This document shows, one piece after another, positions 19,591 to 57,661 of a stretch of 64,000 nt of DNA. Numbering within the stretch: position 1 is the stretch's first letter; each line of letters starts with the position of its first letter. A program made the position numbers and the translations under genes. The notes under the pieces were generated by a model that was not told the DNA's origin, did not search any database, and saw only the letters and a program-made list of their open reading frames with translations. Origin of the DNA: Orobanche coerulescens (taxonomy: Eukaryota > Streptophyta > Magnoliopsida > Lamiales > Orobanchaceae); assembly GCA_033398695.1 (NCBI GenBank), contig CM065815.1:99290501-99354500 (forward strand). The letters are read 5' to 3'.

Positions 19591-19593
19591 CAC

Positions 19594-25221: not shown

Positions 25222-25222
25222 C

Positions 25223-29054: not shown

Positions 29055-29341
29055 TGTAATATCCAGAATTTCTATTACTGTTGTTTAATGTTATTTTATC
29101 CGAGTTATATTGTACAGTGTGGAATCTGTACCATATGGATAAAATAATTGAAAGACTGAGACTGCTATACTTGTATAATTGTTGTACTTAGTATACAATT
29201 GTATTTGAGGATATCGTGTATTAGATGTATCGTATGAGAACATTATTGGAAGGAGCATGTGTATTCAATATGCCGTATGTTCTTATTTTGTATGTCGAAA
29301 TGTTGGACAAGAATAGCTGAAAATGGCTAAGTATAGCTTGA

Positions 29342-29801
29342 TTAGCGCACGCTAATATTCAATCTTAGCGCACGCTATCATGCAGGTTTAGCGCACGCTA
29401 ATGGCAAAGGATAGCGTACGCTAGTGTAGAGCAGATCAGAGGGAATTTACGTGTGGACCCGGCCACTTTCGGCGCATGTGCCGACTAGGTTAACGGATGT
29501 TTGTTATGAAGGATTAGCGCACGCTAAATCATATGGTTAGCGCACGCTAACATCAGATCGGTCCAAAGGAATCTTTGCTTTGTCGGGTGCTTTCGGCATG
29601 TGGTGACACGGGGGTAGGTGCAGACTGTAGCAAGTCAACTATGAGTAGTGCACGCTATGGATGAAGGTTTGTGTACGCTAAATAGAGGCCTTTATGTACG
29701 CTATTGCATGGGCATTGCCTACGTAAATCATTGTATGCAGTAAGACAGTAGGCTCTGGACTGCGATAGCACACGCTAACAAAGACAGTTAGCGCACGCTA
29801 A
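29342..29801. promoter_or_regulatory. Palindromic box array in the C 5' LTR
   Basis: About eleven boxes of the form TTAGCGCACGCTAA (variants TAGCGTACGCTA, TAGTGCACGCTA, TAGCACACGCTA), spaced about 20-60 bases, ending ten bases before TATATATAT at 29812. Several variants are what CpG to TpG/CpA change would give. Confidence 0.85.
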
Positions 29802-29811
29802 TAATAGTCAG

Positions 29812-29820
29812 TATATATAT
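29812..29820 (+). promoter_or_regulatory. TATA box of the C 5' LTR
   Basis: TATATATAT directly after the box array and before GTGTAGTTGG; same in the 3' LTR at 57513. Defines the U3/R border of the family. Confidence 0.65.
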
Positions 29821-31168
29821 GTGTAGTTGGCCATTATTCTTCATTTCATCCATTCTTTCTTTGCAACCGATAGAGAGAGTTCTTAGAGAGATGTTTGAAG
29901 TTCTAAACACTGTATTATGGTGGAATTGATCATCCATAACAACATTTGAAGCATGGAAGTGATTGAGAATGGATTCAACCTTGGAAATCAATCCATTCCT
30001 TCAAAGAGGTAATTACTCTTCACTTTGGGATTTCATTTTGGATTGTATATGATGTCCTTGAGTTGATAATCGTCATGTATATGAGTTAACAAGTATGATT
30101 ATGAGATTGGTTACCGAGTTATGTTGATGTTATTGTTGACATACGGGTATTGATACAATTCGAATGGTTTAGAATTGTGTTGTTCATCTTCAAAGATATA
30201 TGTTGGCTAATGTCTTCCTTCAATTCGGATCTTTGATGTTGTTGTTGTTGGTTTATTCATATGATGGTGAATATGGCAATGATTATGAATTCTTGGTATT
30301 CATATGTTGATATTGAGGAAGAAGATGATCTATGAATATATGACTTGGATTATGAGTTGGATGATTGTTTATATGCTAAAGGATATTGGATTTCGTTGTT
30401 TTGATAGCTATGAACATGGTTTCAAATCACTTAGTGTTCTTGATAATCGTCATATGTTGATCGGCATCTGAACTGCATGCAACTGCATGTCATTAGCGCA
30501 CGCTAGTGTTACTGGCTAGCGCACGCTATGTTAAGTGATTAACGTGCGCTAAGTCAACAGACACTGTAGTATATCCTATTTCAGTCATGAATTCGTGATC
30601 GTTTACGTTGGATTGATTAGACTAGTGGTTAATCGAGATATTGTTGAGCCGTTGGGTTTGTGAATTGGTTATATTGATTGTTGATTGTTATCGAACTTGT
30701 TGTTTATCGAATTACTGTAATAGGTTGAGAATATTGATCGTTGATTATAACCGTATGTTGCGGTCGAGTTCTAGGATGTTCGTGAATTGCATTGATCGGG
30801 ATCGAGGAGCTTGTAGGCGATGGCAAGGAATTGGTAACGTCTTCATCGGTATCGAGGCAAGTTATTACTTGCTCAGTTTATAATATTTAATGAATGGTTT
30901 CTATTTCATTCGTTTATAATTTATATGGCAATGTTTATAATCGCAATCACAGGAGATTTGGGATTATAAATTTTATTCGAGTTTTGGGAATTTAAATCAT
31001 AATGTACATGATTTACTTTTGTTATTGGTATACTTGTATATCGAGGATACATTGTGATAAAGACGAAGATATGAATTATCTGCAATCCATGATATTTTGG
31101 ACCATCGAGTATTGAGGATAATGGTTCGTGATGGTTTAGACACCGAGATCGCTCTCGAAGGACTCGGG

Positions 31169-32031
31169 GCAAGTACTCTAATCATTTTTATCATTTGTGT
31201 CGATCATGTCGTGATACATTCGTGTATCGTTGTTGTCGTGCATTTGTGCATTGTTGTTGTCGTGCATTGTGTACTGTTGTTTTGTGCAGTTGTGCATTGT
31301 CGTCATATGTTCACCTCGTGTTGGTCCGACGGGATCATCAGGGGATCTATGCTAGCGTGCGCTGGATCATCGGACAGGTTTTTCCACCACTAGTTGGTCT
31401 GACGGGATCATCGTGGGATCTAGGCAGTGAACGCTGGATCATCGGATTACCTATGTGTTGTTGTTGTGCATATGTATATTATGGGTTTGCCATAAGTATA
31501 CATTTTTGTATTGATGTGACATATTGACGTTGTCATATGAGTATGCATTTGTAGGTCTTGTGTTAGGACCATGCCCTTATGTTCTATTGATCTGATCTTG
31601 GATTAGACTGACATGATTTCGTCGTGGCTTTTCATATCTTGAGGTATGTTCTGTATTTCCTTTGGTATTTGTCTTTTGATGGACAATCGATTATCGTGTT
31701 GGGATTTGATGATGTTATTCTGATGGATCGAATTGATCAGAGTTGGTATATTTCCATATTACGAGTTATGATGATGTTTTGAGAATCTTGAGTATTGTTT
31801 GAGGAACAATATCGATGTTTTCTTTGAGTTTATTGATTAATCGAGATTACGATGTACAATCTGATAATGGTTATTTTGATGAGGATTATTCGAGTAAATA
31901 AAGTTATGGCTGTAAGATTATATTGGTCGTATTCTTACTTAGTAATTTCATTGGTATGTAATTATTGATGTGATGTGATGGTTATCATTGTTGGATATTA
32001 TGGGTGACCCAATCGTGGGCTTTCTTTTTAG
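31169..32031 (+). other. Candidate GC-AG intron in the C leader
   Basis: Donor-like GG|GCAAGTAC at 31169; a second AG|GCAAGTTA at 30857. Acceptor TTTCTTTTTAG|GT ends at 32031, preceded by TGACCCAATCGTGGG, a small hairpin (CCCA/TGGG). The arrangement matches those in A and B. Inference only. Confidence 0.4.
31324..31445 (+). repeat. Duplicated module in the C LTR
   Basis: GACGGGATCATC ... GCTGGATCATCGGA occurs twice, about 62-77 bases apart. It resembles the duplicated GACGGGGTCACAC module in family A at 44113-44285. Confidence 0.7.
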
Positions 32032-32520
32032 GTTCTTGGAATATCAAGCTTGTTGCGGTCGTGGAGAGATGAGCTTCCTGGAGGATACTGGCTACGACAT
32101 GTATTTGTGTATTGAGTTTCTGATCAGTTGTTGTATTCCGCTGCTAGATTATTTCAATTGTTTGTATTTTTCCGCTGTGTGAGTATTTTTCAAATGGCCT
32201 TTTTGGTATGTGGTAACTTAAGTTACTTTGGAAATCATTTTCTAAACTATTTTGTCGGTACATGTAAGTGATAGCTTAACGTATGTTTTTAAACTGTTGA
32301 GTCTTGGCATTTCGGGCATTGTGGTTTCAAATGAGATTTTTACGACTGTTTTGATAATCGGATTTTATTAAGTCTTCGAATGTTTTTAAAAGATAGTACC
32401 GTCGTTAGCCTCTTGGGTGTTTGTAAATGTTTGCGAAAATTTCCTTCAGCCCTGTGGGTTCTATCTCGGGGCCCACGACGCTGGAATATTCCTGGATGGA
32501 TATGAGTGTGTTACAGAATA

Positions 32521-32537
32521 TGGTATCGGAGCCTAGG
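32521..32537 (+). other. Primer binding site of family C
   Basis: TGGTATCGGAGCCTAGG, initiator-Met type, five bases after the LTR. Confidence 0.8.
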
Positions 32538-34920: not shown

Positions 34921-35318
34921 CTTAGTGTAATATCCGCAATTTTCGATTTTCGGTAAATTTCTTTTTTCGGCCGGAGTCCGTTTTGACGACTCGCTCGTGA
35001 CCGTTTCGTCATTCTGAGAGTATTTAGTTCTGTACTTTCTGTCATCCGAGTTCGTTTCGGTGTCGTTTTGTTGAGTTCCGTGTTCTTAAGCGACTTTCCC
35101 GCGCTTGAGTTTGATTCTTGCGAATCTCATTCGAAACTGTCGTTTCGGGTTTCTCGTAAGTTCATTTAACGTTGTTATACGTGTTGTGAGCTTCGGTTTG
35201 GTTATTCTTGTCGTATCGTGATTTTTCGGACATCTGGGGCTATTTTGTAATTTCCCAAAGTTGTGGGTATGTCGTCATACCCATTTCTGAGATGTTCTGT
35301 TGCTCTCTCTCTGAGTTG

Positions 35319-35697
35319 TTAGCACACGCTACGCTTTGTGGCTAGCGCGCGCTAGGTTGCCGAAGTTAGCGCACGCTAAGTGTTGCCGTTAGCGCGCGCT
35401 AACGGGTGGTGCAGAAGCAGTCCAGAGGCTACTGGACTGGGTTAGAACGTTGGTTAGCGCACGCTATTTGGTAACATAGCGCGCGCTTGGGTACATTGGT
35501 AGCGCACGCTGGGGGGAGAAAAGCGCGCGCTATCCGGTACTTCAGGGCAGTCCAGGAGCTACTGGACTGGGTCTGGGGGTCTCGTTAGCGCACGCTAACA
35601 TTTGTAGCTAGCCCGCGCTAACTGTACATTTTGGCAGAACGTTTTGTTCTGATGCTTCGATAGCACACGCTAATCAGGTAGTATTAGCGCACGCTAA
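35319..35697. promoter_or_regulatory. Palindromic box array in B LTR1
   Basis: Twelve boxes of the AGCGCRCGCT type. The centre alternates AC and GC forms through boxes 1 to 10 (AGCACACGCT, AGCGCGCGCT, AGCGCACGCT, AGCGCGCGCT and so on). Two inverted CAGTCCAG/CTGGACTG pairs lie between them. The last box abuts the TATA palindrome. Confidence 0.88.
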
Positions 35698-35723
35698 GCT
35701 GTCCAGTATATAAACTGGACAGC
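35698..35723 (+). promoter_or_regulatory. TATA box inside a perfect inverted repeat, B LTR1
   Basis: Arms GCTGTCCAGT and ACTGGACAGC (10 bases each) enclose ATATAA; the TATA box TATATAAA is at 35707-35714. Same in LTR3 (54664-54689) and, with one change, LTR2 (41204-41229). Confidence 0.8.
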
Positions 35724-36276
35724 AGTCATTACTCTTCATTTTTCTTCATTTATTCTTCTTCCTCTGCGGGTTGAGACGAGGGCGACTTGGGCTTGGGCTC
35801 CTGGCCGATTTCTACTCCATCCAAGGTGTTTTGGAGTATCCTAGGTGATTATAACATCATCTAATCCATTATTCTTCACCGAATCAAGGTATTTTTTCTT
35901 GAATCCCTAGAGTTGACTTTTTGGGAGTTTTGTTCTTGATTTCATTTTCTGTCTATTTTTGACGAACCAATTGTTGTCAAATGATGTTGTTAAACATATC
36001 CTATGGATTGTATATCCATATTTCGACTCGGAATTCCGTTTTCATGTTTTGTCGGGACGAATCGTGTTCTTGGCCGTTTTGGGGGAAACATTTGAACTTT
36101 CGTCATTCATTTTTTGAATTCAACGGCTTTAAGTCGTGCTATGGAATTCATTTTCATTATTGTTATTGTTGTTCGTAGTTTATTGTCGCGGATTAGCGCT
36201 CGGTGGAGTCGGCGGGTTCGTAATCGGTTCGTGCCAACCTACTTCGATCGGTTCTTCGTGTTTGTGGTTACTCGAG

Positions 36277-37298
36277 GCAAGTACCTTGTCCATACAATTC
36301 TTATTTTATGAATATGATAATTAGTGATCGTCTCTTTGTGTTTATTTGATCGTTTGAATCTCACTTTCATAGATTCGGTTAGCCTTGTTAAAGGCCCTCT
36401 TTCAAAACGCGCGTGTTTTGTGGACATTGTGTTCGTGGATGGTTATGTGAATTACTATGAATACACTTGGTGTTGTCGTTGTGCTTTGATAATATATATG
36501 TATATATTATCTCTTATTGGTGCGTTGTAATTTGACCATTGCGTCGCGTATTGTGTTGCCATTGAGTGAATTACTTAGATATTATTGATGTGATATGTTA
36601 TTTGTGTGAATGTGTGGATATGGTTGAAGGTCTACGGTGACACATGGCAAGTGATCATGTGGTCAGGATGCAACAAGTGATTGATCCAACCGTGAGAGCC
36701 TGAGATAATCTACGGTGGCACATGGCATGCGATCATGTGGCCAGGATGCAACAAGCGATTGATCCAACCGTGAGATGTGTGTGATTTGTTTCACTAGCCA
36801 GCTCGGGAGGGTCCTTCGAGGCCTCGAGTGGGATTTGTGGCTTCGTCCCGGTCCTAGGCGATGCGCGTGCATGGTTATGTTTTGTTGATTTTTATGTCCG
36901 TCGAGGACACGTGATGTTGGGCTCTGGCCCTGTGAATTGTTGTCGGTTTTCTATTTGCGAAAACAAAACCTTTGGGCTGTGATCCATGTTGATTTTGGTA
37001 AGAGAAGGATTCTGAAATCCTAAATTGTTTTCTATTAAAACTCTCGATGGAATTTTAAACTGTTTTATAAATTGTTTCCCTTGATTTGTGATCTTTCGGT
37101 TTTGGAATGTTTTAGCCAAACTCATGCCTCGGGAAGTACTTTTCGTTAGGTTTGGATCTTTGAGGATTCCTATTTATTGTTATTCGTCGAATGTGAATTG
37201 TATGGCTCGTATTTGCACTTTGTTCTTGCACTAGCAAAACAGTGGAGTTTTGCTAACCCCCGAGTATTCGGGGGGTGGATGTCTGTTTTTGCATTCAG
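36277..37298 (+). other. Candidate GC-AG intron in B LTR1
   Basis: Donor GAG|GCAAGTAC at 36277; acceptor TTTTTGCATTCAG|GT ending 37298. CTAAC at 37253-37257 fits a branch site and is followed by a hairpin (CCCCCGAGTATTCGGGGG). LTR3 has the same at 55243-56269. Not proven. Confidence 0.45.
36631..36775 (+). repeat. Duplicated 78-bp module in B LTR1
   Basis: TCTACGGTGACACATGGCAA at 36631 and TCTACGGTGGCACATGGCAT at 36709, each running to GATCCAACCGTGAGA. Lies inside the candidate intron; also in LTR3 at about 55603-55748. Confidence 0.85.
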
Positions 37299-37637
37299 GT
37301 TTGGGAGCATAACACATGGTCGACACGAAGGATGATGAAAGATGAACGATACTAATCACTCGAGGACCCGTTTGATGTCATATTGGTTTAGTTGTATTTT
37401 ATTTCCGCTGCAGTATTCTTTCCCCGTTGTACGGGAGTGTGTTGTATTCGACCCCTGCGTGGGCATGTATTGTAATTGAGTTGTATGTATTTATTGAAAG
37501 ACCAAATCGGTCTACTGAGTCATTTTAGCCTTAAAGGCGTTGTTGAGTTGTTCGGTTTTGTTACTAGCCTGGTAGAACCTTGAGGGAAGGTTCTACGACG
37601 TGTAATATCCCTGAGCGGATTGGGGGTGTTACATAAA

Positions 37638-37654
37638 TGGTATCGAAGCTTAGG
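37638..37654 (+). other. Primer binding site, B internal 1
   Basis: TGGTATCGAAGCTTAGG, initiator-Met type with changes, four bases after LTR1. Repeated after LTR2 at 41973. Confidence 0.7.
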
Positions 37655-40430: not shown

Positions 40431-41968
40431 TGTAATATCCGCAATTTTTGATTTTCGGTAAATTTCTTTTTTCGGTCAGAGTCCGTTTTGACGACTCGCT
40501 CGTGACCGTTTCGTCATTCTGAGAGTATTTAGTTCTTCACTTTCTGTCATCCGAGTTCGTTTTGGTGTCGTTTTGTTGATTTCCGTGTTCTTAAGCGACT
40601 TTCCCGCGCTTGAGTTCGATTCTTGCGAATCTAGTTCGAAACTGTCGTTTCGGGTTTCTCGTAAGTTCATTTAATGTTGTTATACGTGTTGTGAGCTTCG
40701 GTTTGGTTATTCGTTGTCGTATCGTGATTTTTCGGACATCTGGGGCTGTTTTGTAATTTCCCAAAGTTGTGGGTATGTCGTCATACCCATTTCTGAGATG
40801 TTCTGTTGCTGTCTCTCTGAGTTATTAACGCACGCTACGCTTTGTGGCTAGCGCGCGCTAGGTTGCCGAAGTTAGCGCACGCTAAGTGTTGCCATTAGCG
40901 CGCGCTAACGGGTGGTGCAGAAACAGTCCAGAGGCTACTAGACTTGGTTAGAACGTTGGTTAGCGCACGCTATTTGGTAACATAGCGCGCGCTAGGGTGC
41001 ATTGGTAGCGCACGCTGGGGGGAGGATAGCGCACGCAATCCGGTACTTCAGGGCAGTCCAGGAGCTACTGGACTGGGTCTGGGGGTCTCGTTAGTGCACG
41101 CTAACATTTGTAGCTAGCACGCGCTAACGGTACATTTTGGTAGAACGTTTTGTTCTGATGCTTCGATAGCGCACGCTAATCAGGTAGTATTAGCGCACGC
41201 TAAGCTGTCCAGTATATAAACTGGACAACAGTCATTACTCTTCATTTTTCTTCATTTATTCTTCTTCCTCCGCGGGTTGAGACGAGGGCGACTAGGGCTT
41301 GGTCTCCTGGCCGATTTCTACTCCATCCAAGGTGTTTTGGAGTATCCTAGGTGATTATAACATCATCTAATCCATTGTTCATCACCGAATCGAGGCATTT
41401 TTTCTTGAATCCCTAGAGTTGACTTTTTGGGAGTTTTGTTCTTGATTTCGTTTTCTGTCCATTTTTGACGAACCAATTGTTGTCAAATGATGTTGTTAAA
41501 CATATCCTATGGATTGTATATCCATATTTCGACTCGAAATTCCGTTTTCGTGTTTTGTCGGGACGAATCGTGTTCTTGGCCGTTTTGGGAGAAAGATTTG
41601 AACTTTCTTCATTCGTTCTTTGAATTCAACGGCTTTAAGTCGTGCTATGGAATTCATTTTCATTGTTGTTATTGTTGTTCATAGTTTATTGTCGCGGATT
41701 AGCGCTCGGTGGAGTCGGCGGGTTCGTAATCGGTTCGTGCCAACCTACTTCGATCTCCCCGTTGTACGGGAGTGTGTTGTATTCGATCCCTGCGTGGGCA
41801 TGTATTGTAATTGAGTTGTATGTATTTATTGAAAGACCAAATCAGTCTACTGAGTCATTTTAGCCTTAAAGGCGTTGTTGAGTTGTTCAGTTTTGTTACC
41901 AGCCTGGTAGAACCTTGAGGAAAGGTTCTACGGCGTGTAATATCCATGAGCGGATTGGGGGTGTTACA
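40431..41968 (+). repeat. Family B LTR2 (1538 bp, internally deleted)
   Basis: Starts TGTAATATCCGCAATTTT and ends GGGGGTGTTACA, but about 1.17 kb is missing at 41757, joining the equivalents of about 36248 and 37420 in LTR1. The box array (40828-41203) and TATA (41213) are kept; the candidate intron and its two splice sites are lost with flanking sequence. Confidence 0.9.
40828..41203. promoter_or_regulatory. Palindromic box array in B LTR2
   Basis: Twelve boxes in the same order and spacing as in LTR1 with scattered substitutions (first box AACGCACGCT, eighth AGCGCACGCA, ninth AGTGCACGCT). Confidence 0.85.
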
Positions 41969-42715: not shown

Positions 42716-42907
42716 TGTAATAATCGTACCTTTTATCGCTTATAATTAGGAATTCAGGAACTTTGTAGTTTGGTTCATAAATTTTTCGAACATTGGTATC
42801 ATGTGTTTGATTCTAAATTGAGCCTGTATGTTGTGTTTCTTGTTAGTATTCCGTTAATATCCGTCATCGTGGAGTCGAACCGCTTGCATCGCTTCTGCAA
42901 CCCAGGA

Positions 42908-43480
42908 TTAGCGTGCGCTACTTTATATGGGTAGCGTACGCAACGGTAGTTGTAGGCTAACGCGCGCTAGTACAAGAGGTTACGCACGCTAACCGGCAGC
43001 ATGGGGCAGTCCAGAGAGCACTGGACTGGGACTAAAAATTGAGCTAGCGCACGCTAAGGCATCATAGTAGCGCACGCTAGGGGAACAGGTAGCGCACGCC
43101 ACTGTTGGGTGTTAGCGCGTGCTAAGTGACCCGGACAGTAAGAGCGGTGAGGTCTGGACTTTAGCCGACCAACGGGTAACGTGCGCTAAGACGGTTCGTT
43201 GCGTGCGCTAACTCGTCGGTCGTAGCGCACGCTATTCGGCCGTAACGCACGCTAACGGTGTGGGCGAAGGGTTTCGAACAGGGCGAAGGTTACGGACTTA
43301 GATGGACATCGATAGCGCGCGCTAAGGCGGAAGCTGCGCGCGCTAACTCGGCGATACAGCGCACGCTAACTCGATTGAGTAGCGCACGCTATCGGATGTG
43401 GTGCACACCACCGGCCGGGCGTAAGGGTCTGGTCAGACCTAGGCCGATAGCGCGCTATTCGGTAAGCGTTAGCGCGCTAA
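42908..43480. promoter_or_regulatory. Palindromic box array in the A 5' LTR
   Basis: About eighteen boxes: TAGCGTGCGCTA, TAGCGCACGCTA, TAACGCACGCTAA, TAGCGCGCGCTAA and variants. One CAGTCCAG/CTGGACTG pair as in family B is present near 43010. The last two boxes are shortened (TAGCGCGCTA) compared with the 3' LTR. Ends nine bases before TATATAAATA. Confidence 0.88.
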
Positions 43481-43488
43481 GGCGCACT

Positions 43489-43498
43489 TATATAAATA
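43489..43498 (+). promoter_or_regulatory. TATA box of the A 5' LTR
   Basis: TATATAAATA after the box array; 3' copy at 50516-50525. Confidence 0.7.
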
Positions 43499-44036
43499 CA
43501 TGTGTTGCGGTCAACACTTGTCGCTTTTCATTTTCTCTCCTCTTCTTCGAGCTTCTAGACGACTCCGGGCGGTGTAGGCGAGGTTTTCGGTGAGCACGGT
43601 TGAAACTCAAATCTTTCCAACTTCAAGTAAGGATCTATCAATCTTACGTCGTCTTCACCAAGGAATTGAGGTAATCCTTCCGTAGAACCCTAACTTTGGG
43701 GAAATTTGGGGATTTTGGGGATCTCGTTTCTCCAGCTGTTTTAACTCCAAATCATGATGGATTGTAGTTGAAAATGGTTGTATAGGTATGATTTCATGAT
43801 TTTCCTCAAGGTTTTGTGGATTGATTCCAAATCCTCCTTTGTAAATCGAGCAAAACCCATTACGCCCTCGTAGTACTCGATTAAATGGTCCTAAGGGTAG
43901 AACTTAGGATGGATTTTCGTGTCTCCAACAAATTGTAACGATTAAAGCCTCAATGTTTGTTAGGAGCGGGATTCGGAAGATAGTTCGGACCGTAACCTTG
44001 TTCGTCGTCTATTCCTTTGAGAGTAAGAAAGTTCAG

Positions 44037-44462
44037 GCAAGTACTTTATTGCATTAGTTTATGGCATGCATTTCTGTGATGGTTTAGAGAATGATGAGAG
44101 TTGAAAGGTTATTCTCGGGTACTCTCACTCGGGGATTGACTCGACGGGGTCACACGGGGACCTGGTGGCTTAGCGGCTGGACCGGGTCACGAGAGATACT
44201 TTGAGTGGACATCCTCACCTGGGGATTGCTCGACGGGGCACACAGGGACTTGGTGGCTTGAGGGCCGGACCGGGTCGCGAGGGTTGTCGGAGTGTTTTTA
44301 CTGGTGATTGATATTGATATTCCGAAATATCGTAAATTGAACTGTTTTGGGATTTTGAAATGATTTGGAAATGCCTGTGGATTAAAATAATTGTAATACT
44401 GTACTTGCACTAGCGGTTGTGGCTAACCCCATTGTTGGGGTGGAATGTTTTGTACATTTCAG
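44037..44462 (+). other. Candidate GC-AG intron in the A 5' LTR
   Basis: Donor CAG|GCAAGTAC at 44037; acceptor TGTACATTTCAG|GT ending 44462. CTAAC at 44423-44427 is followed by the hairpin CCCCATTGTTGGGG and then a T-rich stretch. 3' copy at 51066-51484. Layout parallels B and C. Confidence 0.45.
44113..44285 (+). repeat. Duplicated module in the A LTR
   Basis: Two units of about 95 bases, each with CTCGACGGGG, CACACGGGGACCTGGTGGCTT (slightly varied) and GGACCGGGTCACGAG. Inside the candidate intron. Confidence 0.8.
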
Positions 44463-44821
44463 GTATTCTCGAGGGACAGGAGCCCCCATGTGGCACACAC
44501 GGAGTTGACAAGCACACTGGATGTTAGAGAGCTCGCATCAGTCGTTGTATTTGTGATGTTGAGTCAGTTTTATGTACTGTATTATGGTTGGTTTTGAGTT
44601 GTACTTTGTCGTGTATTGTTTGCGTTCAGTGATGATTTGAAATATACTCTTTTGGCCGCGGCCGAGGCCTAACTTGTGTTTTGTAACCTTTGTTGGACTA
44701 TTATGTCATGGTTGTTATGTTTTGGATTGTGGTTAAATCTTGTGTGTCGTCAGCCTGGCGGGACCCTTGTGTGTCCTGTGGCGTGTAATATTCCCGGTTG
44801 GATCTGGGGGTGTTACATTTA

Positions 44822-44838
44822 TGGTATCAGAGCCTAGG
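44822..44838 (+). other. Primer binding site of family A
   Basis: TGGTATCAGAGCCTAGG, the canonical initiator-Met site, four bases after the LTR. Confidence 0.88.
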
Positions 44839-45055
44839 TTTCGGAAATACCTAGGCCTTGGGACATTCGATTGTCAAGTCGTAAGAGTCGTATAAACTGA
44901 TCGAGCTCAACACCGTGTGATGCTGTCGAGCCGTGTGACCCATGGTGGTAAGACTCCTTAACTCTCTTTGTGCCTTGTCGCTTTCATAGTAAGGTAGATT
45001 TAAGTTCCTTGAATTATGAACTGTTCTGATAACTTTAATCCTTCTATATCTCAGT

Positions 45056-46240
45056 ATGCTGAGAGGCCGTGGTGGACGTGGCGGACGTGGACGCGGCAGA
45101 GGCCGTGGTCGTGGTACCGCTAATGAATCTGGCACACACTCTAATGATGCATCTGATTCGGCATCCCATACGGAGCCGAACACCGCTTCTTTGAACCCGA
45201 GCGGTCAGCCAGATCCTACTGTAAGTCAAGAACCGTCGGCTGACACTAATGTGAATGCCGGCATAGCTGCTATACTCCAGCAGGTAGCGGCACAATTAGT
45301 CAAGTTGAATGAATCCGGACATCATGATCAACCCACAGATGAGAGTAAATGGCTTCAGGGGGTGATGAAGATGCAACCTCCTCGTTTTACTGGTGCGTCT
45401 GATACATTGGGATGGGAAGGATGGTTGTTTCAGTTTGGCAGAATTTTTGACGCCGTTGCGTGCCCCGAAGAAAGACGGGTCCCTATTGTACAGTACTTCC
45501 TTGACAAGGAGGCTGCGGATTGGTGGGAAGCTGCGAAACCTACGGATCGTGTGGCCACTTGGGCCGAGTTTAAAGCTGCGATAGAGGAAGAGTATTGCCC
45601 TTGGCCTATTAGAGAAAAACGAATTGCAGATTTCTTTACGGCAACACCTCAGGATGTACCTGTCACCGAGGCCATTGTTACGTATAATCAGCAACTCAAC
45701 CATGTTCGTGAGCAAGTAAGGACCGAAGCGGATAAAATCCGTTACTTTGATTTGAGAATGAAGCCCAGGATTCGTGAGGCTATGGCGGGTTTCAGATGCG
45801 TTACGTTGAAGGAATATCAGGATCGTGCTTTGGCTATCGAGATGGTCATTTCCACGTCAAGGTCGGGTATCGAGATGAAGAAGCCAAAGACGACCGGTGG
45901 TTTTTCAGGAAGTAAAAGTGGTGGGTTTCACAAATCTCAAGTTTCTCACTCCGCTATCGGGAATCATTCGGCCAAGCGGTAGTGCTCCGAGTTTACGACT
46001 GGGCCAGTCTTCTGCCTTTGGTAGAGGACAATGTTTCAATTGTAATCAAACAGGCCATCAGTGTCGGGAATGTCCACTTCCTCCCGTTATTTGTTTTACA
46101 TGCGGTCAAGCCGGTCATCGGGCGGCTCATTGCGAGGCTGCCACCAAAATTGTTAAACAGCAGAGTTCGGCACCAACTCCGAGTGTGAACCCAGGGACTA
46201 CATCTAATCAGCCGCAATGCACTGGGACGTGGAAGAGGTC
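45056..46240 (+). pseudogene. Gag of family A, frameshifted
   Basis: ATG 45056 begins an RGG-like basic N-terminus (MLRGRGGRGGRGRGRGRG). The gag core (about 45360-45860) has GWEGWLFQFGRIFDAVACPE, VQYFLDKEAADWWEAAKP and WAEFKAAIEEEYCPWPIREK, typical of chromovirus gag. The first frame stops at 45982. Before that, near 45930, the coding line moves to another frame, which holds two zinc knuckles: CFNCNQTGHQCREC (46031-46072) and CFTCGQAGHRAAHC (46093-46134). Family role: nucleocapsid assembly and RNA packaging. Confidence 0.88.
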
Positions 46241-46272
46241 GAGGTCGGTGGGATCGTCAAGCTGCATCGAGT

Positions 46273-46887
46273 GTGGGTTCGGTGCAGCCAAGAGTGTACC
46301 AGATGAGGCGTGCAGACGAAACAGAGGCTCCGGTAGCTGCAGGTATCACGCAAATACTTTCTCAACCTGTATCGGTATTATTTGATTCGGGAGCTACCCA
46401 TTCGTTCATTGCTCTTGATTGTGTGAAACGTTTGGGTCTTGGGTGTTTGATTGAGTGCGAACCATTCGTAGTAAGCACTCCTAGTGGAGAGCGTTTGATT
46501 GGGAACCAAGAGATTAAAAATTGTCTCGTGTATATCGGGAGTCGAGATTGGCCTTCAGACCTCATAGTGGTAGATCTGAAAGGAGAGGATGTAATTCTGG
46601 GAGATGATTGGTTAAATCGCCATGGTGCTATCATGAACTACAGGACGCGAACTATTTCTATAATAGCGGAAGATGGTGTCGAGCACACTTTCTTGGGTCG
46701 TAAACCGGGTAGTTCAGGTGGAGTGATTTCCGCCGTTAAGGCGATAAGATTGTTAAAACAAGACTGTATTGGTTATTGGTGTTACGCCATGAGCACAAAT
46801 GGCGGTGAAGCCGATTTATTATCCATTCCAGTTGTGAATGAATACCCAGATGTATTTCCGGATGACCTAAGGACTACCTCCATCTAG
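46273..46887 (+). pseudogene. Aspartic protease of family A
   Basis: Open for 204 codons, with ILSQPVSVLFDSGATHSFI; catalytic DSGAT starts at 46384. Also LIVVDLKGEDVILGDDWLNR (the ILG-type flap) and VVNEYPDVFPDDL leading to RT. The stop at 46885-46887 separates it from the RT frame by a frameshift. Protease fold residues look intact. Confidence 0.87.
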
Positions 46888-47831
46888 AGAAGTAGAGTTT
46901 CCTATTGACCTTGTGCCAAGCGCAAAGACTGCTTCCCGAGCGCCTTATCGTATGGCACCCTCAGAGATGTTGGAACTGAAGAAACAATTGGGCGAGCTTC
47001 TGGATAAAGGGTACATCCGACCTAGTGCATCACCTTGGGGTGCGCCGGTCCTTTTCGTTAAGAAGAAGGATGGATCGCTCCTATGCATTGATTATCGGGA
47101 ATTGAATAAGTTAACTATTAAGAACAAATATCCTTTACCTCGGATAGACGATTTGTTCAACCAACTTCAGGGTGCCACAGTATTCTCTAAAATTGATTTG
47201 CGATCGGGATATTACCAGCTGAGGATTCGGGATTTTGACATTCCGAAGACTGCCTTCCGTACTCGGTACGGTCATTACGAATTTGTGGTTATGCCATTTG
47301 GCACGACCAACGCTCTGCCGTGTTTATGCGGTTGATGAACAAAGTTTTCATTGACTATCTTGATAAATTTGTGGTCGTTTTCATTGATGATATTCTTGTC
47401 TACTCCTAATGATGAAGATCATGCTAAACATCTCCGAATGGTGTTGAACACTTTGAGAATGGAGAAACTTTACGCTAAATTCTCAAAGTGCGAGTTCTGG
47501 CTTAAAGAGGTGACATTTCTTGGTCACGTAATTTCGGCTGATGGAGTTCGAGTGGATCCCCAAAAGATAGCGGCCATTGTTGAGTGGGAACCCCTAGGAA
47601 TGTGAAGGAGACCAGAGCTTTCTAGGGCTTGCCATTATCGCAGTTCGTCGAAGGATTTTCAAAAATCGCTCGACCACTTACTCGCTTGCTCCAAAATCTC
47701 GAAATTGAGTGGACGGATGAGAGGCAAAACAGTTTTGATGAGCTTAAACGACGATTAACTTCGGCGCCCGTGTTATCATTACCTCGGGGCACCGACGATT
47801 ACGAGGTGTACGGTGATGCTTAGGACTTGGA
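46888..47831 (+). pseudogene. Reverse transcriptase of family A, broken
   Basis: From 46913: [80 protein letters not shown] and [11 protein letters not shown], then a stop at 47333-47335. The active-site block FIDDILVYS is in another frame with its two Asp codons at 47386-47391, immediately before TAA. The thumb ([20 protein letters not shown]) runs in the frame 47351-47605 and the connection (FSKIARPLTRLLQ) in 47629-47823. At least four breaks. Confidence 0.9.
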
Positions 47832-48215
47832 TTGGGTTGTGTTTTGATGCAAAGAGGTAGAGTGATTTCATATGCGTCCCGACAATTGAAACCATATGAA
47901 ATGAATTACCCTACCCATGATTTAGAGTTATCGGCGGTTGTATTCGCGCTAAAAATTTGGAGGCATTATCTTTATGGTTCCCCGTGTAAAATCTACACGG
48001 ATCACAAAAGTCTAAAATATATATTTAGCCAAAAGGAGCTAAATATGAGACAACGTCGATGGTTGGAGCTGATTAAGGATTACGACCTGGAAATATTATA
48101 TCATCCAGGAAAAGCTAATGTGGTAGCGGACGCATTAAGTCGGAAACTCGTAGCCCTCCAAATGCTGAGTATGCTTACATCTCAACACGAGATCCGTCGA
48201 GACATAATTAGGTAA
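47832..48215 (+). pseudogene. RNase H domain of family A
   Basis: Frame of 127 codons: [51 protein letters not shown] and [15 protein letters not shown]. Typical single RNase H of chromoviruses, with a stop at 48213-48215. The following about 330 bases (48216-48550) are the decayed RNase H-integrase linker. Confidence 0.88.
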
Positions 48216-49692
48216 GATATAGAGATTTGGCTCCAGAAAGTTCAAGGCCAATTATGTACTTTGGAGATCACGCTGCCCTGATCAACGAAGTCAAGTCGAA
48301 GCAATTTGAGGATCCATTACTAGTCCACTAAGGAAGGATGTAATGAGAGGAAAAGCTCCAGGATTTATGATTCAGATGACGGTGTTTTAAAGTTTAGAGG
48401 TAGACTTTGTATACTGCAGACGTCGAACTTAAGCACCATATTGAGGGAAGCGCACACTACACCGTATTCTCTTCACCCGACGAGCAAAATGTATAAGGAC
48501 GTGAAGAATAACTATTGGTGGAGCAATATGAAGAATGATGTTGAAGAGTTCGTTTGAAATGCTTGACGTGTCAACAAGTCAAGGTTGAACATCAACGGCC
48601 GGGTTGCTTAAATAGCTACCAATCCGGAATGGAAATGGGAGGATATAACGATGGATTTTGTCACCAACATGCCGAGCACGCGCAGTGGATGAACATGATT
48701 TGGGTTATTGTCGATCGACTAACCAAGTCAGCTCACTTTCGGGAATTAAGGATAATTGGGGGCCCGAAAAACTAGCTCGTGTATTCATCGCGGAAATTGT
48801 AAGGTTACACGGGACTCCTAAGAGCATTATTTCCGATCGAGACGGTAGATTTGTGTCGCACTTTTGGCAATCCGTTCATCGAGCTTTAGGGACGGAACTG
48901 AGGCTCAGTACATCGTACCATCCTCAGACTGATGGGCAGTCTGAACGGACAATTCAGACTCTTGAGGACATGCTGCGAGCATGTGCCCTAAATTGGAAGC
49001 ATGACTGGGAATCGCATTTGCCACTAATCGAATTTGCCTACAATAATAGTTGGCATGCGTCGATTAAGATGGCACCGTTTGAGGCTTTATATGGACGGAA
49101 ATGTAAGTCACCATTGTGTTGGGATGATTCCTCTGAACTGATTGGGACGGAGCCGGATATGTTAGTGGAGACCCGGGAAAAGATCTCTTTGATTCGCGAG
49201 AGGCTTTTGGTCGCCCAAAGCCGACAGAAGTCCTATGCCGATAATCGACGTCGACCGCTAGAGTTTGAAGTCGGCGATCATGTGTTGATAAAAGTATCGC
49301 CAACCCGGGGAATTTATCGCTTTGGGAAGAAAGGTAAACTCAGTCCGAGATATGTTGGGCCATTCGAGATTATAGAACGGATTGGCGAACTTGCTTACCG
49401 TGTGGGCCTTCCGCCTTCACTGGGTCATGTGCATAATGTATTTCATGTTTCGCAATTGAGGAAATACGTACCGGACCCTAAGCATATCATTGATTTTGGG
49501 GAGATTGAATTAAATTCCGATGTCACCTTTGAGGAAAAACCAATCCAGATTTTGGAGCGTCGGGTAAAACAACTTAAACGTAAAGTTATTCCCTTGGTCA
49601 AAGTACAATGGTCGAGACATGGATCGGAAGAAGCCACGTGGGAGACAGAAGAGCATATGAAGTCTAGATACCCCGAATTATTCACTTCGTAA
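48216..49692 (+). pseudogene. Integrase with C-terminal chromodomain of family A
   Basis: The zinc-binding part is shifted: CLTCQQVKVEHQRPGCL is in the frame from 48554, earlier parts in others. From about 48760 one frame is open to 49692 with IISDRDGRFVSHFWQSVHRA, STSYHPQTDGQSERTIQTLE (catalytic Glu), EFAYNNSWHASIKMAPFEAL, the GPY/F module (LSPRYVGPFEIIERIGELAY) and VFHVSQLRKY. The last about 50 residues form a chromodomain: EEKPIQILERRVKQLKRKVI, VKVQWSRHGSEEATWETEEH and SRYPELF. Chromodomains direct chromoviruses to marked chromatin. Stop at 49690-49692. Confidence 0.92.
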
Positions 49693-49710
49693 GTTTCGGG
49701 ACGAAACTTA

Positions 49711-49727
49711 TTCTTAGGGGGAGAGAA
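49711..49727 (+). other. Polypurine tract of family A
   Basis: TTCTTAGGGGGAGAGAA before the 3' LTR, after GTTTCGGGACGAAACTTA which is shared with B and C. Confidence 0.8.
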
Positions 49728-51839
49728 TGTAATAATCGTACCTTTTATCGCTTATAATTAGGAATTCAGGAACTTTGTAGTTTGGTTCGTAAATTTTTCG
49801 AACATTGGTATCATGTGTTTGATTCGAAATTGAGCCTGTATGTTATGTTTCTTGTTAGTATTCCGTTAATATCCGTCATCGTGGAGTCGAACCGCTTGCA
49901 TCGCTTCTGCAACCCAGGATTAGCGTGCGCTACTTTATATGGGTAGCGTACGCAACGGTAGTTGTAGGCTAACACGCGCTAGTACAAGAGGTTACGCACG
50001 CTAACCGGCAGCATGGGGCAGTCCAGAGAGCACTGGACTGGGACTAAAAATTGAGATAGCGCACGCTAAGGCATCATAGTAGCGCACGCTAGGGGAACAG
50101 GTAGCGCACGCCACTGTTGGGTGTTAGCGCGCGCTAAGTGACCCGGACAGTAAGGACAGTGAGGTCTGGACTTTAGCCGGACCAACGGGTAACGTGCGCT
50201 AAGACGGTTCGTTGCGTGCGCTAACTCGTCGGTCGTAGCGCACGCTATTCGGTCGTAACGCACGCTAACGGTGTGTACAGAAGGGTTTCTGAACAGGGCA
50301 GAAGGTTCTGGACTTAGATTGGACATCAGATAGCGCGCGCTAAGGCGGAAGCTGCGCGCGCTAACTCGGCGATACAGCGCACGCTAACTCGATTGAGTAG
50401 CGCACGCTATCGGATGTGGTGCACACCAGCTCGGCTGGGCAGAAGGGTCTGGGCTGTAGACCTAGGCCGATAGCGCACGCTATTCGGTAAGCGTTAGCGC
50501 GCGCTAAGGCGCACTTATATAAATACATGTGTTGCGGTCAACACTTGTCATTTTTCATTTTCTCTCCTCTTCTTCGAGCTTCTAGACGACTCCAGGGCAG
50601 TGTAGGCGAGGTTTTCGGCGGAGCACGGTTGAAACTCAAATCTTTCCAACTTCAAGTAAGGATCTATCAATCTTACGTCGTCTTCACCAAGGAATTGAGG
50701 TAATCCTTCCGTAGAACCTTAACTTTGGGGAAATTTGGGGATTTTGGGGATCTCGTTTCTCCAGCTGTTTTAACTCCAAATCATGATGGATTGTAGTTGA
50801 AAATGGTTGTATAGGTATGATTTCATGATTTTCCTCAAGGTTCTGTGGATTGATTCCAAATCCTCCTTTGTAAATCGAGCAAAACCCATTACGCCCTCGT
50901 AGTACTCGATTAAATGGTCCTAAGGGTAGAACTTAGGATGGATTTTCGTGTCTCCAACAAATTGTAACGATTAAAGCCTCAATGTTTGTTAGGAGCGGGA
51001 TTCGGAAGATAGTTCGGATCGTAACCTTGTTCGTCGTCTATTCCTTTGAGAGTAAGAAAGTTCAGGCAAGTACTTTATTGCATTAGTTTATGGCATGCAT
51101 TTCTGTGATGGTTTAGAGAATGATGAGAGTTGAAAGGTTATTCTCGGTACTCTCACTCGGGGATTGACTCGACGGGTCACACGGGACCTGGTGGCTTAGC
51201 GGCCGGACCGGTCACGAGAGATACTTTGAGTGGACATCCTCACCGGGATTGCTCGACGGGCACACAGGACTTGGTGGCTTGAGGGCCGGACCGGTCGCGA
51301 GGGTTGTCGGAGTGTTTTTACCGGTGATTGATATTGATATTCGGAATATCGTAAATTGAATCAAGCTTTTGGGATTTTGAAATGATTTGGAAATGCCTGT
51401 GGATTAAAATAATTGTAATACTATACTTGCACTAGCGGTTGTGGCTAACCCCATTGTTGGGGTGGAATGTTTTGTACATTTCAGGTATTCTCGAGGGACA
51501 GGAGCCCCCATGTGGCACACACGGAGTTGACAAGCACACTGGATGTTAGAGAGCTCGCATCAGTCGTTGTATTTGTGATGTTGAGTCAGTTTTATGTACT
51601 GTATTATGGTTGGTTTTGAGTTGTACTTTGTCGTGTATTGTTTGCGTTCAGTGATGATTTGAAATATACTCTTTTGGCCGCGGCCGAGGCCTAACTTGTG
51701 TTTTGTAACCTTTGTTGGACTATTATGTCATGGTTGTTATGTTTTGGATTGTGGTTAAATCTTGTGTGTCGTCAGCCTGGCGGGACCCTTGTGTGTCCTG
51801 TGGCGTGTAATATTCCCGGTTGGATCTGGGGGTGTTACA
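49728..51839 (+). repeat. 3' LTR of family A (2112 bp)
   Basis: Pair of 42716-44817. Boxes at 49920-50506 with full-length last boxes; TATA at 50516. Several G-runs in the duplicated module (about 51145-51300) are one base shorter than in the 5' copy. Confidence 0.92.
49920..50506. promoter_or_regulatory. Palindromic box array in the A 3' LTR
   Basis: The same about eighteen boxes as in the 5' LTR, nearly all intact TAGCGCRCGCTA forms. Confidence 0.88.
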
Positions 51840-51844
51840 ACAAC

Positions 51845-53892: not shown

Positions 53893-56604
53893 TGTAATAT
53901 CCGCAATTTTCGATTTTCGGTAAATTTCTTTTTTCGGTCGGAGTCCGTTTTGACGACTCGCTCGTGACCGTTTCGTCATTCTGAGAGTATTTAGTTCTGC
54001 ACTTTCTGTCGTCCGAGTTCGTTTCGGTGTCGTTTTGTTAAGTTCCGTGTTCTTAAGCGACTTTCCCGCACTTGAGTTCGATTCTTGCGAGTCTCGTTCG
54101 AAACTGTCGTTTCGGGTTTCTCGTAAGTTCATTTAACGTTGTTTCATGTGTTGTGAATTTCGGTTTGGTTATTCGTTGTCGTATCGTGATTTTTCGGACA
54201 CGTGGGGCTGTTTTGTAATTTCCCAAAGTTGTGGGTATGTCGTCATACCCATTTCTGAGATGTTCTGTTGCTGTCTCTATGAGTTGTTAGCACACGCTAC
54301 GCTTTGTGGCTAGCGCGCACTAGGTTGCCGAAGTTAGCGCACGCTAAGTGTTGCCGTTAGCGCGCGCTAACGGGTGGTGCAGAACAGTCCAGAGGCTACT
54401 GGACTGGGTTAGAACGTTGGTTAGCGCACGCTATTTGGTAACATAGCGCGCGCTAGGGTGCATTGGTAGCGCACGCTGGGGGAGGATAGCGCGCGCTATC
54501 CGGTACTTCAGGGCAGTCCAGGAGCTACTGGACTGGGTCTGGGGGTCTCGTTAGCGCACGCTAACATTTGTAGCTAGCACGCGCTAACTGTACATTTTGG
54601 TAGAACGTTTTGTTCTGATGCTTCGATAGCGCGCGCTAATCAGGTAGTATTAGCGCATGCTAAGCTGTCCAGTATATAAACTGGACAGCAGTCATTACTC
54701 TTCATTTTTCTTCATTTATTCTTCTTCCTCCGCGGGTTGAGACGAGGGCGACTAGGTCTTGGGCTCCTGGCCGATTTCTACTCCATCCAAGGTGTTTTGG
54801 AGTATCCTAGGTGATTATAACATCATCTAATCCATTGTTCTTCACCGAATCAAGGCATTTTTTCTTGAATCCCTAGAGTTGACTTTTTGGGAGTTTTGTT
54901 CTTGATTTCGTTTTCTATCCATTTTTGACGAACCAATTGTTGTCAAATGATGTTGTTAAACATATCCTATGGATTGTATATCCATATTTTGACTCGGAAT
55001 TCCGTTTTCGTGTTTTGTCGGGACGAATCGTGTTCTTGGCCGTTTTGGGGGAAACATTTGAACTTTCCTCATTCGTTCTTTGAATTCAACGGCTTTAAGT
55101 CGTGCTATGGAATTCATTTTCATTGTTGTTATTGTTGTTCGTAGTTTATTGTCGCGGATTAGCGCTCGGTGGAGTCGGCGGGTTCGTAATCGGTTCGTGC
55201 CAACCTACTTCGATCGGTTCTTCGCGTTTGTGGTTACTCGAGGCAAGTACCTTGTCCATACAATTCTTGTTTTATGAATATGATAATTAGTGATCGTCTC
55301 TTTGTGTTTATTTGATCGTTTGAATCTCACTTTCATAGATTCGGTTAGCCTTGTTAAAGGCCCTCTTTCAAAATGCGCGTGTTTTGTGGACATTGTGTTC
55401 GTGGATGGTTACGTGAATTACTATGAATACACTTGGTGTTGTCGTTGTGCTTTGATAATATATATGTATATATATTATCTCTTATTAGTGCGTTGTAATT
55501 TGACCATTGCGTCGCGTATTGTGTTTGTTGCCATTGAGTGAATTACTTGGATATAATTGATGTGATATGTTATTTGTGTGAATGTGTAGATATGGTTGAA
55601 GGTCTATGGTGACACATAGCACGTGATCATGTGGTCAGGATGCAACAAGTGATTGATCCAACCGTGAGAGCCTGAGATAATCTACGGTGGCACATGGCAT
55701 GCGATCATGTGGCCAGGATGCAACAAGTGATTGATCCAACCGTGAGATGTGTGTGATTTGTTTCGCTAGCCAGCTCGGGAGGGTCCTTCGAGGCCTCAAG
55801 TGGGATTTTTGGCTTCGTCCCGGTCCTAGGCGATGCGCGTGCGTGGTTATGTTTTGTTGATTTTTATGTCCGTCGAGGACACATGATGTTGGGCTCTGGC
55901 CCTGTGAATTGTTGTCGGTTTTCTATTTGCGAAACAAAACCTTTGGGCTGTCATCCCTGTTGATTTTGGTAAGAGAAGGATTCTGAAATCCTAAATTGTT
56001 TTCTATTAAAACTCTCGATGGCATTTTAAACTGTTTTATAAATTGTTTCCCTTGATTTGTGATCTTTCGGTTTTGGAATGTTTTAGCCAAACTCATGCCT
56101 CGGGAAGTACTTTTCGTTACGTTTGGATCTTTGAGGATTCCTGGTTATTGTTATTCGTGGAATGTGAATTGTATGGCTCGTATTTGCACTTTGTTCTTGC
56201 ACTAGCAAAAAAGTGGAGTTTTGCTAACCCCCGAGTATTCGGGGGGTGGATGTCTGTTTTTGCATTCAGGTTTGAAAGCATAACACATGATCGGCACGAA
56301 GGATGATGAAAGATGAACGATACTAATCACACGAGGACCCATTTGATGTCATATTGGTTTAGTTGTATTTTATTTCCGCTGCAGTATTCTTTCCCCGTTG
56401 TACGAGAGTGTGTTGTATTCGACCCCTGCGTGGGCATGTATTGTAATTGAGTTGTATGTATTTATTGAAAGACCAAATCGGTCTACTAAGTCATTTTAGC
56501 CTTAAAGGCGTTGTTGAGTTGTTCGGTTTTGTTACCAGCCTGGTAGAACCTTGAGGAAAGGTTCTACGGCGTGTAATATCCCTGAGCGGATTGGGGGTGT
56601 TACA
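53893..56604 (+). repeat. Family B LTR3 (2712 bp)
   Basis: Full-length partner of LTR1. Boxes 54287-54663, TATA palindrome 54664-54689, candidate intron 55243-56269. Followed by CTTAG, the right outer duplication. Confidence 0.9.
54287..54663. promoter_or_regulatory. Palindromic box array in B LTR3
   Basis: Twelve boxes as in LTR1; the eleventh is AGCGCGCGCT and the twelfth AGCGCATGCT here. Confidence 0.85.
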
Positions 56605-56609
56605 CTTAG

Positions 56610-56779
56610 GAGATCGTCGACTTTGCGCAGTTGTGAGAATGCTAGTTTGGTTATTCGGTAATGATGATGATTGATCGTTGTCGTGATGATTTCGGGATAT
56701 TTTGGTTGAACGTTTCGTTCTTTCTTTTTATGATAGATTGCAAGTTTCGAGGAAGAAACTTATTTTAAGTGGTGTAGCA
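56610..56779 (+). other. C internal region, 3' end with PPT
   Basis: Ends with CAAGTTTCGAGGAAGAAACTT and AAGTGGTGTAGCA before the 3' LTR. No coding sequence. Confidence 0.7.
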
Positions 56780-57661
56780 TGTAATATCCGAAATTTCTTC
56801 TATTGTTGTTTAATGTTAATTTATCCGAGTTATATTGTACAGTGTGGAATCTGTACCATATGGATAAAATAATTGAAAGACTGAGACTGCTATACTTGTA
56901 TAATTGTTGTACTTAGTCTATAATTGCATTTGAGGATATCGTGTATTAAATGTATCGTATGAGAACATTATTGGAAGGAGCATGTGTATTCAGTATGCTG
57001 TATGTTCGTATTTTGTATGCCGAGACCTTGGACAAGAATAGCTGAAAATGGCTAAGTATAGCCTGATTAGTGCACGCTAATATTCAATCTTAGCGCATGC
57101 TATCATGCAGGTTTAGCGCATGCTAGTGCAGAACAGATCAGAGGGAATCTATGTGTCGACCCGGCCACTTTTGGCGCATGTGCCGACGAGGTCAACAGAT
57201 GTTTGTTATGAAGGATTAACGCATGCTAAATCATATGGTTAGCGTACGCTAACATCAGATCGGTCCAAAGGAATCTTTGCTTTGTCGGGTGCTTTCGACA
57301 TGTGGGGATACGGGGTAGGTGCAGATTGTAGCAAGTCAACTACGAGTAGCGCACGCTATAGATGAAGGTTTGCGTACGCTAAATAGAGGCCTTTACGTAT
57401 GCTATTGCATGGGCATTGCGTACGTAAATCATTGTATGCAGTAAGGCAGTAGCCTCTGGAATGCGATAGCGCACGCTAACAAAGACAGTTAGCGCACGCT
57501 AATAATAGTCAGTATATATATGTGCAATTGGCCATTATTCTTCATTTCTTCCATTCCTTCCTTGCAACCGATATAAAGAGTTCTTATAGAGATGTTTGAA
57601 GTTCCAAACACTGGATTATGGTGGAATTGATCATCCATAACAACATTTGAAGCATGGAAGT
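56780..57661 (+). repeat. 3' LTR of family C, interrupted by copia-2
   Basis: Matches 29055 onward for about 880 bases (TGTAATATCCGAAATTTC to CATTTGAAGCATGGAAG). Boxes at 57064-57501, more CpG-decayed than in the 5' copy (TAGTGCACGCTA, TAGCGCATGCTA), and one box block missing near 57125. TATA at 57513. Confidence 0.85.
57064..57501. promoter_or_regulatory. Palindromic box array in the C 3' LTR
   Basis: About ten boxes, several with CpG to CpA/TpG type changes. Ends eleven bases before TATATATATG. Confidence 0.8.

Follow-up and report, generated by a model that had tools for sequence, protein, structure and literature searches.

The stretch of the Orobanche coerulescens genome analyzed here (64,000 nucleotides; NCBI GenBank assembly GCA_033398695.1, contig CM065815.1, positions 99,290,501 to 99,354,500; hereafter the window) contains a nest of three Ty3/gypsy long terminal repeat (LTR) families, in which C holds B and B holds A. 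Each of the seven LTRs of these families carries, just ahead of its TATA box, an array of 11–18 copies of a near-palindromic box, TAGCG-YR-CGCTA. The boxes are oriented and lie mostly 23–24 bp apart, and the same array is found in a Ty1/copia-type element. On balance, we lean slightly towards the view that the arrays act as an enhancer close to the promoter, which host DNA-binding proteins would read and which would have moved from one LTR lineage to another.

An earlier note on this DNA had described about 10–18 boxes in each of the seven LTRs, ending within about 12 bases of TATA, and our counts agree: the last box ends approximately 9–12 bases ahead of TATA, and the number of boxes per LTR was scored with 7 matching letters out of the 10 in the half-sites as the minimum, hence a few weak boxes are included. 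A search with TTAGCGCRCGCTAA (at most 3 mismatches, both strands, which often counts a near-palindrome twice) gave 175 matches against a shuffle mean of 5.5, and 170 of them were inside the LTRs of A, B and C. At 9 or more of the 10 letters, 85 boxes were present in 3.5 kb of array and one, also within a C LTR, in the remaining 60.5 kb, for which a Markov null gives 0.6. Two other LTR-pair elements of the window (3864–14636 and 17701–27095) had no box at 9/10. The spacing had been given as 15–60 bp, but it is mostly 23 bp: with one copy per family considered, 18 of 30 short intervals were 23 bp (range, 20–26), and linkers of 39–96 bp break the series. The arrays of near-palindromes are real, and their boxes have a direction: the center of the 44 boxes of the same set was CA in 26, CG in 10, TG in 4 and TA in 4. 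The CpG richness ascribed to the boxes is present (observed/expected ratio, 1.13–1.41 in the arrays and 1.03 in the whole window) but carries little information, as the ratio in a genome sample was 1.06. This absence of CpG depletion across the 25 stretches of the sample (range, 0.77–1.37) is unexpected for a large transposon-rich plant genome.

The genome-wide search that the note had proposed was performed on 3,646,015,169 bases, with the reversed string as the control; the counts may be lower bounds. Perfect boxes TAGCGYRCGCTA occurred at least 1,309,842 times (reversed, 108) and TTAGCGCACGCTAA at least 228,904 times (reversed, 3), and the RY-centered TAGCGRYCGCTA was found 768 times (reversed, 221). 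Box pairs in the 23–24-bp register (CGCTA-N11,12-TAGCG) numbered at least 713,104 (reversed, 2,281), matches to CTACTGGACTG at least 32,490 (reversed, 457), and linker–box pairs at the lattice distance (CTGGACTG-N14-16-TAGCG) at least 56,797 (reversed, 37). The sample mentioned above was drawn at preset places and comprised 25 stretches, L011 to L035, each 10 kb long; 20 of them came from contig C1 and the remaining five from one further contig apiece. A box at 9/10 was present in 18 of them, and 197 of the 210 sampled boxes fell into 23 clusters of three or more, which cover 3.1% of the sample; with 128 perfect boxes, equivalent to 512 per Mb compared with 359 per Mb genome-wide, the sample is somewhat rich. 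Single YR-centered box pairs 22–23 bp apart in one viral contig (L001:12696-12730) and in one Aurantiacibacter genome (L002:396-429) are probably unrelated, and the two-box pattern with CR centers gave no match in viral contigs.

The arrangement of the boxes follows a regular grammar. The sample contained 107 gaps of 15–35 bp, and 93 of them measured 23 or 24 bp. Sixteen of its clusters had four or more CA or TG centers; in these, 123 of 130 informative (CA- or TG-centered) boxes had the majority orientation, a figure that majority counting biases upwards. A set of 16 oriented arrays was mapped further, namely those of A2, B1 and C1, two of the copia type and 11 more; they comprise the main array of each locus, with secondary clusters and second copies omitted, and thus are not all of the 23 clusters, and several are related, hence the trials are not independent. 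TATA was found in 14 of the 16; in 11 of these it begins 21–24 bp past the point where the last box starts, taking the next lattice step. The off-step distances were 34 bp (L024), 55 bp (copia-type L014) and, in copia-type L011, 28 bp from a weak 8/10 box and 55 bp from the last good one. The linkers contain a second element that was not in the earlier note, CTGGACTG, often itself on the lattice. After masking of the boxes, CTGGAC was present in 13 of 15 arrays (at most 8 in 30 shuffles) and CTGGACTG in 9 of 15 (at most 3), and CTGGAC stood 22–24 bp ahead of the next box start in 14 of 21 cases, against 4% expected. As a separate observation, TATA is enclosed in a palindrome in B (GCTGTCCAGTATATAAACTGGACAGC) and at the L019 promoter (CTCCCAGTATATATATGGGAG).

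The array is not confined to Ty3/gypsy elements. At two loci 36 Mb apart, L014 and L011, an array-bearing LTR lies within a 3.2-kb repeating unit whose gag is of the copia type (PF14223 in L014, 92.7 bits against a cut-off of 27; the L011 gag is 86.8% identical), and two such arrays are present at each locus. The L014 LTR starts with TGTTGGAATA after a purine tract, and its array and TATA are in U3, followed by primer sites. No pol frame was seen in the 3.2-kb unit, and the element looks gag-only. In the box-masked copia-type array, 13–14 bases around CTACTGGACTG are common to B and L020 (E 0.014 and 0.004, weak alone), and the copia linker signature CTGGACTGAAACTGG was found at 6 of roughly 100 places among the linker–box matches listed. 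The array crosses the superfamilies Ty3/gypsy and Ty1/copia. Its sharing between families and superfamilies fits the ideas in the note of a shared enhancer and of repeated recruitment, and it would also fit transfer.

Other box types use a similar layout. When all perfect palindromes with 5-bp half-sites and a 2-bp center were enumerated in the 25 stretches, TAGCG led with 128, followed by the simple repeats ATATA (88) and TATAT (84), and then by TTACG (35) and TAACG (14), while the remainder had at most 8 each (median, 1). Boxes of the TTACG..CGTAA type numbered 93 at 9/10, of which 71 were in 13 clusters with gaps mostly of 22–24 bp; because the centers of the clustered boxes include GC (14) besides TA (51), the YR rule is limited to TAGCG boxes. 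At L023, an A-like integrase (71%) is followed by a TTACG-type array. In L028 (minus strand, 2425-5042 and 7393-10000), the first 172 bases of the LTRs and their final 612–648 bases are 87–90% identical to B, and these LTRs carry at the position of the B array four and three copies of GTGCCGCGGCAC, 21 and 41–44 bp apart. A U3 cassette appears, from this one locus, to have been swapped on a single backbone. Another element of the window (59831-59988) has a small array of GTGCCGCGGCAC and GAGCCGCGGCAC, partly 21 bp apart. Tentatively, and with less than even expectation, we propose that much of the LTR community of this genome, in both superfamilies, could run on exchangeable U3 cassettes, in which oriented boxes (TAGCGYRCGCTA, TTACGTACGTAA or GTGCCGCGGCAC) on a 21–24-bp lattice lead to TATA, each with its own factor, and which would be moved and swapped between backbones and superfamilies, possibly as a means of altering or evading a host regulator.

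The anatomy of the arrays was observed, as were their numbers, lattice, orientation and linker, their occurrence in elements of both superfamilies and the different box on a B-like backbone, whereas protein binding, enhancer activity, the host origin of the factor and the transfer route are inferred. In this mechanism of a composite enhancer, a host DNA-binding protein would bind the oriented box, and many sites about 23 bp apart would cooperate with a second factor at the linker element to recruit the transcription machinery to TATA one lattice step downstream. Copies keeping box, spacing and linker would be transcribed and multiply, while their spacers drift; the non-coding B and C and the gag-only Ty1/copia-type element would rely on the same array. 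The array would have grown via duplication of the 23-bp unit and of blocks, and would pass between LTR backbones, also across superfamilies, or be replaced by an array of another box type. To our knowledge, none of the motifs of the plant factors NAC, BZR, CAMTA and FHY3 fits all four box centers. One box in two superfamilies and one backbone with a different box suggest that LTR promoters are exchangeable as cassettes between elements with unrelated coding regions, and this sharing makes the question of function testable with a single bait sequence. Perfect sites of the commonest cassette number over 1.3 million; if one host regulator does read them, the expansion of the elements would be linked to a single factor.

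Several observations weigh against this mechanism. A factor with more than one million sites would be titrated, and the coexistence of several box types is left unaccounted for by a single factor. Of four LTR pairs compared for decay after insertion, three showed no slower change in boxes than in spacers (B1/B2, 6.3% versus 3.4%; B1/B3, 4.9% versus 1.3%; C1/C2, 9.2% versus 6.1%; the exception is A1/A2, 0.9% versus 5.3%), so that any constraint would be limited to active copies. An asymmetry between half-sites in the window, where the right half was better kept (22 versus 4 mismatches of 220), was rejected, since it was not general in 220 sampled boxes (65 versus 54 of 1100). In the copia-type element, 55 bp separate TATA from the last good box, a distance that does not fit the lattice. 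The B-like LTRs of L028 have no TAGCG box, hence the lineage can do without it, and L026, with an A-like reverse transcriptase (RT), shows no cluster of the two scanned box types in view. Finally, a location at TATA only does not hold exactly: 8 of the 23 sampled clusters had no TATA within 60 bp downstream, although two of the eight (L012 and L020) are broken by an insertion or a stretch edge, and the TATA of a further cluster (L022:365) is doubtful. Secondary clusters without a nearby TATA, several of them inside LTRs, were seen at L013:899, L015:4976, L024:1912, L033:5325 and 30493-30552 of the window.

Because several box types lower our confidence in the single-enhancer reading, we give some weight to an anti-silencing platform, unlikely as we think it: the array would recruit a host- or element-derived protein that lifts or prevents silencing, in the manner of VANC on the oriented VANDAL arrays, and the box types would change through protein–target coevolution. 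The common orientation, the high density and the several box types on one lattice, one of them swapped on a B-like backbone, would suit such a platform, and the described VANC21 targets are likewise short, oriented, dense, tandem-grown and variable between families (PMC5735166). However, the open frames of A match only gag, protease, RT and integrase in Pfam, leaving no candidate protein gene; an element-encoded factor would need to act across both superfamilies that share the box; and the adjacency of the arrays to TATA in most mapped promoters is predicted more directly by the enhancer.

We regard it as improbable that the array is a passenger, an old tandem repeat without a role that rides along with successful LTRs. 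The note had argued against simple duplication, which is not supported: the 23-bp lattice, like the block plan, resembles duplication and implies that tandem duplication took place long ago, and the promoter-proximal unit (CGATAGCRCACGCTA, 23–24 bp, TTAGCGCRCGCTAA, TATA) is alignable across A, B and C, which makes the array partly shared by descent. The contrast drawn there between conserved boxes and unconserved spacers stands for the spacers proper, but not for the linkers, which share CTGGACTG or parts of it. Identity between families was 83% for boxes and 27.6% for 11-bp spacers (26.4% when shuffled, s.d. 0.7), and within families the spacers reached 28.6% (shuffled, 26.6%, s.d. 1.1); for 9-bp spacers in 15 arrays, the values were 27.7% between arrays (shuffled, 26.8%, s.d. 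0.25) and 29.1% within arrays (shuffled, 27.1%, s.d. 0.9). The spacers are near random with a small real excess identity, which, like the resemblance to duplications, counts in favor of a passenger; the strong identity of the boxes beside them speaks against one, as does the sharing of box and linker between two superfamilies. Moreover, the rest of the LTR is largely unrecognizable between families: beyond the array, the A, B and C LTRs have little in common except the LTR end, and when the boxes were masked, A had its LTR end in common with both B and C and, with B, also the linker (E ~1e-4), and B and C shared nothing below E 0.09.

A role of the palindromes as hairpins of U3 RNA, feeding or escaping small-RNA silencing, is quite improbable. 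Predicted array folding was far more stable than full shuffles (C1, −153.7 versus −137.5; B1, −178.1 versus −135.8; A2, −258.4 versus −210.9 kcal/mol), and maize Sirevirus palindromes are described as small-RNA hotspots (PMC5311732, PMC10760457). However, arrays with their boxes permuted among positions were equally stable (−151.7, −179.6 and −265.8 for C1, B1 and A2), neighboring boxes paired no better than distant ones (10.9 versus 11.1, 11.3 versus 11.0 and 9.8 versus 10.6 of 14), and pairing needs no fixed spacing, single orientation or link to TATA; the stability may be a by-product. Most improbable is that the alternating purine–pyrimidine core GCGYRCGC acts as a Z-DNA-prone or flexible element and not as a protein site read by sequence: a YR center preserves the alternation in TAGCG half-sites and RY breaks it, in keeping with the genome-wide excess of YR over RY boxes, but YR centers may stem from CG via transitions (the comparison covers YR and RY centers), the outer TA letters are kept like the core (218 and 213 of 220 sampled boxes on the left, 207 and 215 on the right), and the sister box TTACGGCCGTAA has an RY center.

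The positions of the arrays and of the elements that carry them are given in Table 1. B (34926-56604) has three LTRs arranged in tandem with two internal regions between them and a single target duplication, CTTAG; its middle LTR is short by 1,171 bp. A contains Pfam domains of a Ty3-type gag, RVP_2, RVT_1 and an integrase end with SH3_Tf2-1 (93.2 bits, above the cut-off) and a weak Chromo match (24.1 bits against a cut-off of 25.1); a Pfam scan of one antisense frame of A had no match, and four A reading frames found no matching region in B or C. The three families are alike in their LTR ends (TGTAATA..TTACA), primer site and polypurine region, and from LTR ends and domains we provisionally take them to be Tekay/Del-like, Del (Tekay) and A presumably being of the same broad lineage. 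For the A gag, a single good relative was found, at 35% identity across 52%, in Orobanche gracilis (only candidates sharing most words were scored), and a long interspersed nuclear element frame of the window matched O. gracilis at 74% across 62% and O. hederae at 84% across 48%. Most of the differences between the LTRs of A1 and A2 fall into two patches (43130-43600 and 44137-44340 versus 50140-50630 and 51167-51360) and are small, for example CAG to CG or an extra G in G runs; they include a 2-bp shortening of two boxes. These differences are possibly in part assembly error, which they partly resemble, and they were therefore left out of the evolutionary evidence. Another element of the window has a tandem repeat of 54-bp units (9905-10571), and an Rfam scan of 28000-58000 gave nothing at gathering scores.

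Table 1. Box arrays, linker elements and host elements (window positions unless a sampled locus is named).
Feature	Position	Strand	Details
C1 array	29342..29802	+	11 boxes; TATA 29812
C secondary cluster	30493..30552	+	3 boxes 23 bp apart, ~680 bp past C TATA
B1 array	35319..35697	+	12 boxes; TATA 35707
B2 array	40825..41203	+	12 boxes; TATA 41213
A1 array	42908..43482	+	17 boxes, final two 2 bp short; TATA 43489
A2 array	49920..50507	+	18 boxes; TATA 50516
B3 array	54287..54663	+	12 boxes; TATA 54673
C2 array	57067..57502	+	11 boxes; TATA 57513
Linker element CAGTCCAG..CTGGACTG	35418..35441	+	between B1 box blocks
Further linker elements	35548-35569, 43007-43028, 50019-50040		in B1, A1 and A2, respectively
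CTGGACTG alone	29755		in C1
B promoter	35698..35723	+	TATA within 26-bp palindrome of GTCCAG + CTGGAC, the linker half-sites
C 5' LTR	29055-32515	+	ends TGTAATA..GTGTTACA; primer site 32521
C 3' LTR	56780-57661		incomplete
B LTRs	34926-37633, 40431-41968, 53893-56604
A element	42716-51839		target duplication ACAAC; LTRs 42716-44817, 49728-51839
A coding part	45020..49689	+	gag, zinc knuckle, protease, RT fragment, integrase end; frames interrupted
TTACGTACGTAA/TAACGTACGTTA clusters	L012, L016, L019, L023, L030, L034, L035		spacing 22–24 bp
TTACGGCCGTAA clusters	L018, L027, L034		RY center, 14 of 71 clustered boxes

Among openly licensed literature, the matches listed contained no description of the box or of an LTR cassette shared by Ty1/copia and Ty3/gypsy elements, and among the matches listed for the box strings in paper texts, none was about LTRs by its title. 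The closest known system is the repeated motifs (RM) of Sireviruses, palindromes upstream of TATA that were called Sirevirus-specific and whose role was still listed as untested in the available part of that report (Bousios et al. 2010, PMC2829016). The layout is alike: RM boxes are also short palindromes that contain CG, with eight or more in an element; they group together in the LTR ahead of a conserved TATA and are common to otherwise divergent elements (PMC2829016). CpG islands are a further trait of RM clusters, to which the ratios of 1.13–1.41 in the present arrays and 1.03 in the whole window may be compared. Two defining features do not hold here, however, because A, the element for which membership was tested, is Ty3-type and not a Sirevirus (Ty1/copia), and because the core is GCG-YR-CGC, unlike the CGG-CCG core described there in 12 of 13; furthermore, the 23–24-bp lattice up to TATA and the conserved linker do not appear in the available part of PMC2829016. 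In maize, Sirevirus palindrome clusters are described in the regulatory part of the LTR, with small-RNA targeting shown (PMC5311732, PMC10760457), and one palindrome also occurs in Helitrons, a precedent for sharing across transposon types (PMC10760457). The plastic CpG islands of Del (Tekay) occupy a variable 5' LTR region containing the promoter (Cruz et al. 2014, PMC4029996), but eudicot Del LTRs are described without a CpG island there, and a term search of the main text found no mention of palindromes or tandem repeats (PMC4029996). The VANC21 targets of VANDAL21, as far as described in the available part of PMC5735166, are short one-orientation motifs, dense in non-coding regions and tandem-grown, with motif turnover; the present arrays resemble them as dense oriented short-motif arrays in non-coding transposon DNA with motif turnover, but there the element is a DNA transposon, the protein is element-encoded and the motif is YAGTATTAY, whereas LTR elements are concerned here. 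No VANC protein was among the A frames scanned with Pfam, a negative limited by the interrupted state of A and by the lack of a genome-wide search for VANC. Tnt1/Retrolyc1 provide a further parallel in the regulatory U3 of LTR elements (PMC1838419); the present case differs in that the U3 array is among the few LTR parts still recognizable between families. As a whole, we judge that the fixed lattice, the second element, the single box in two superfamilies and the apparent exchange of box types are additions to the known palindromes of LTRs.

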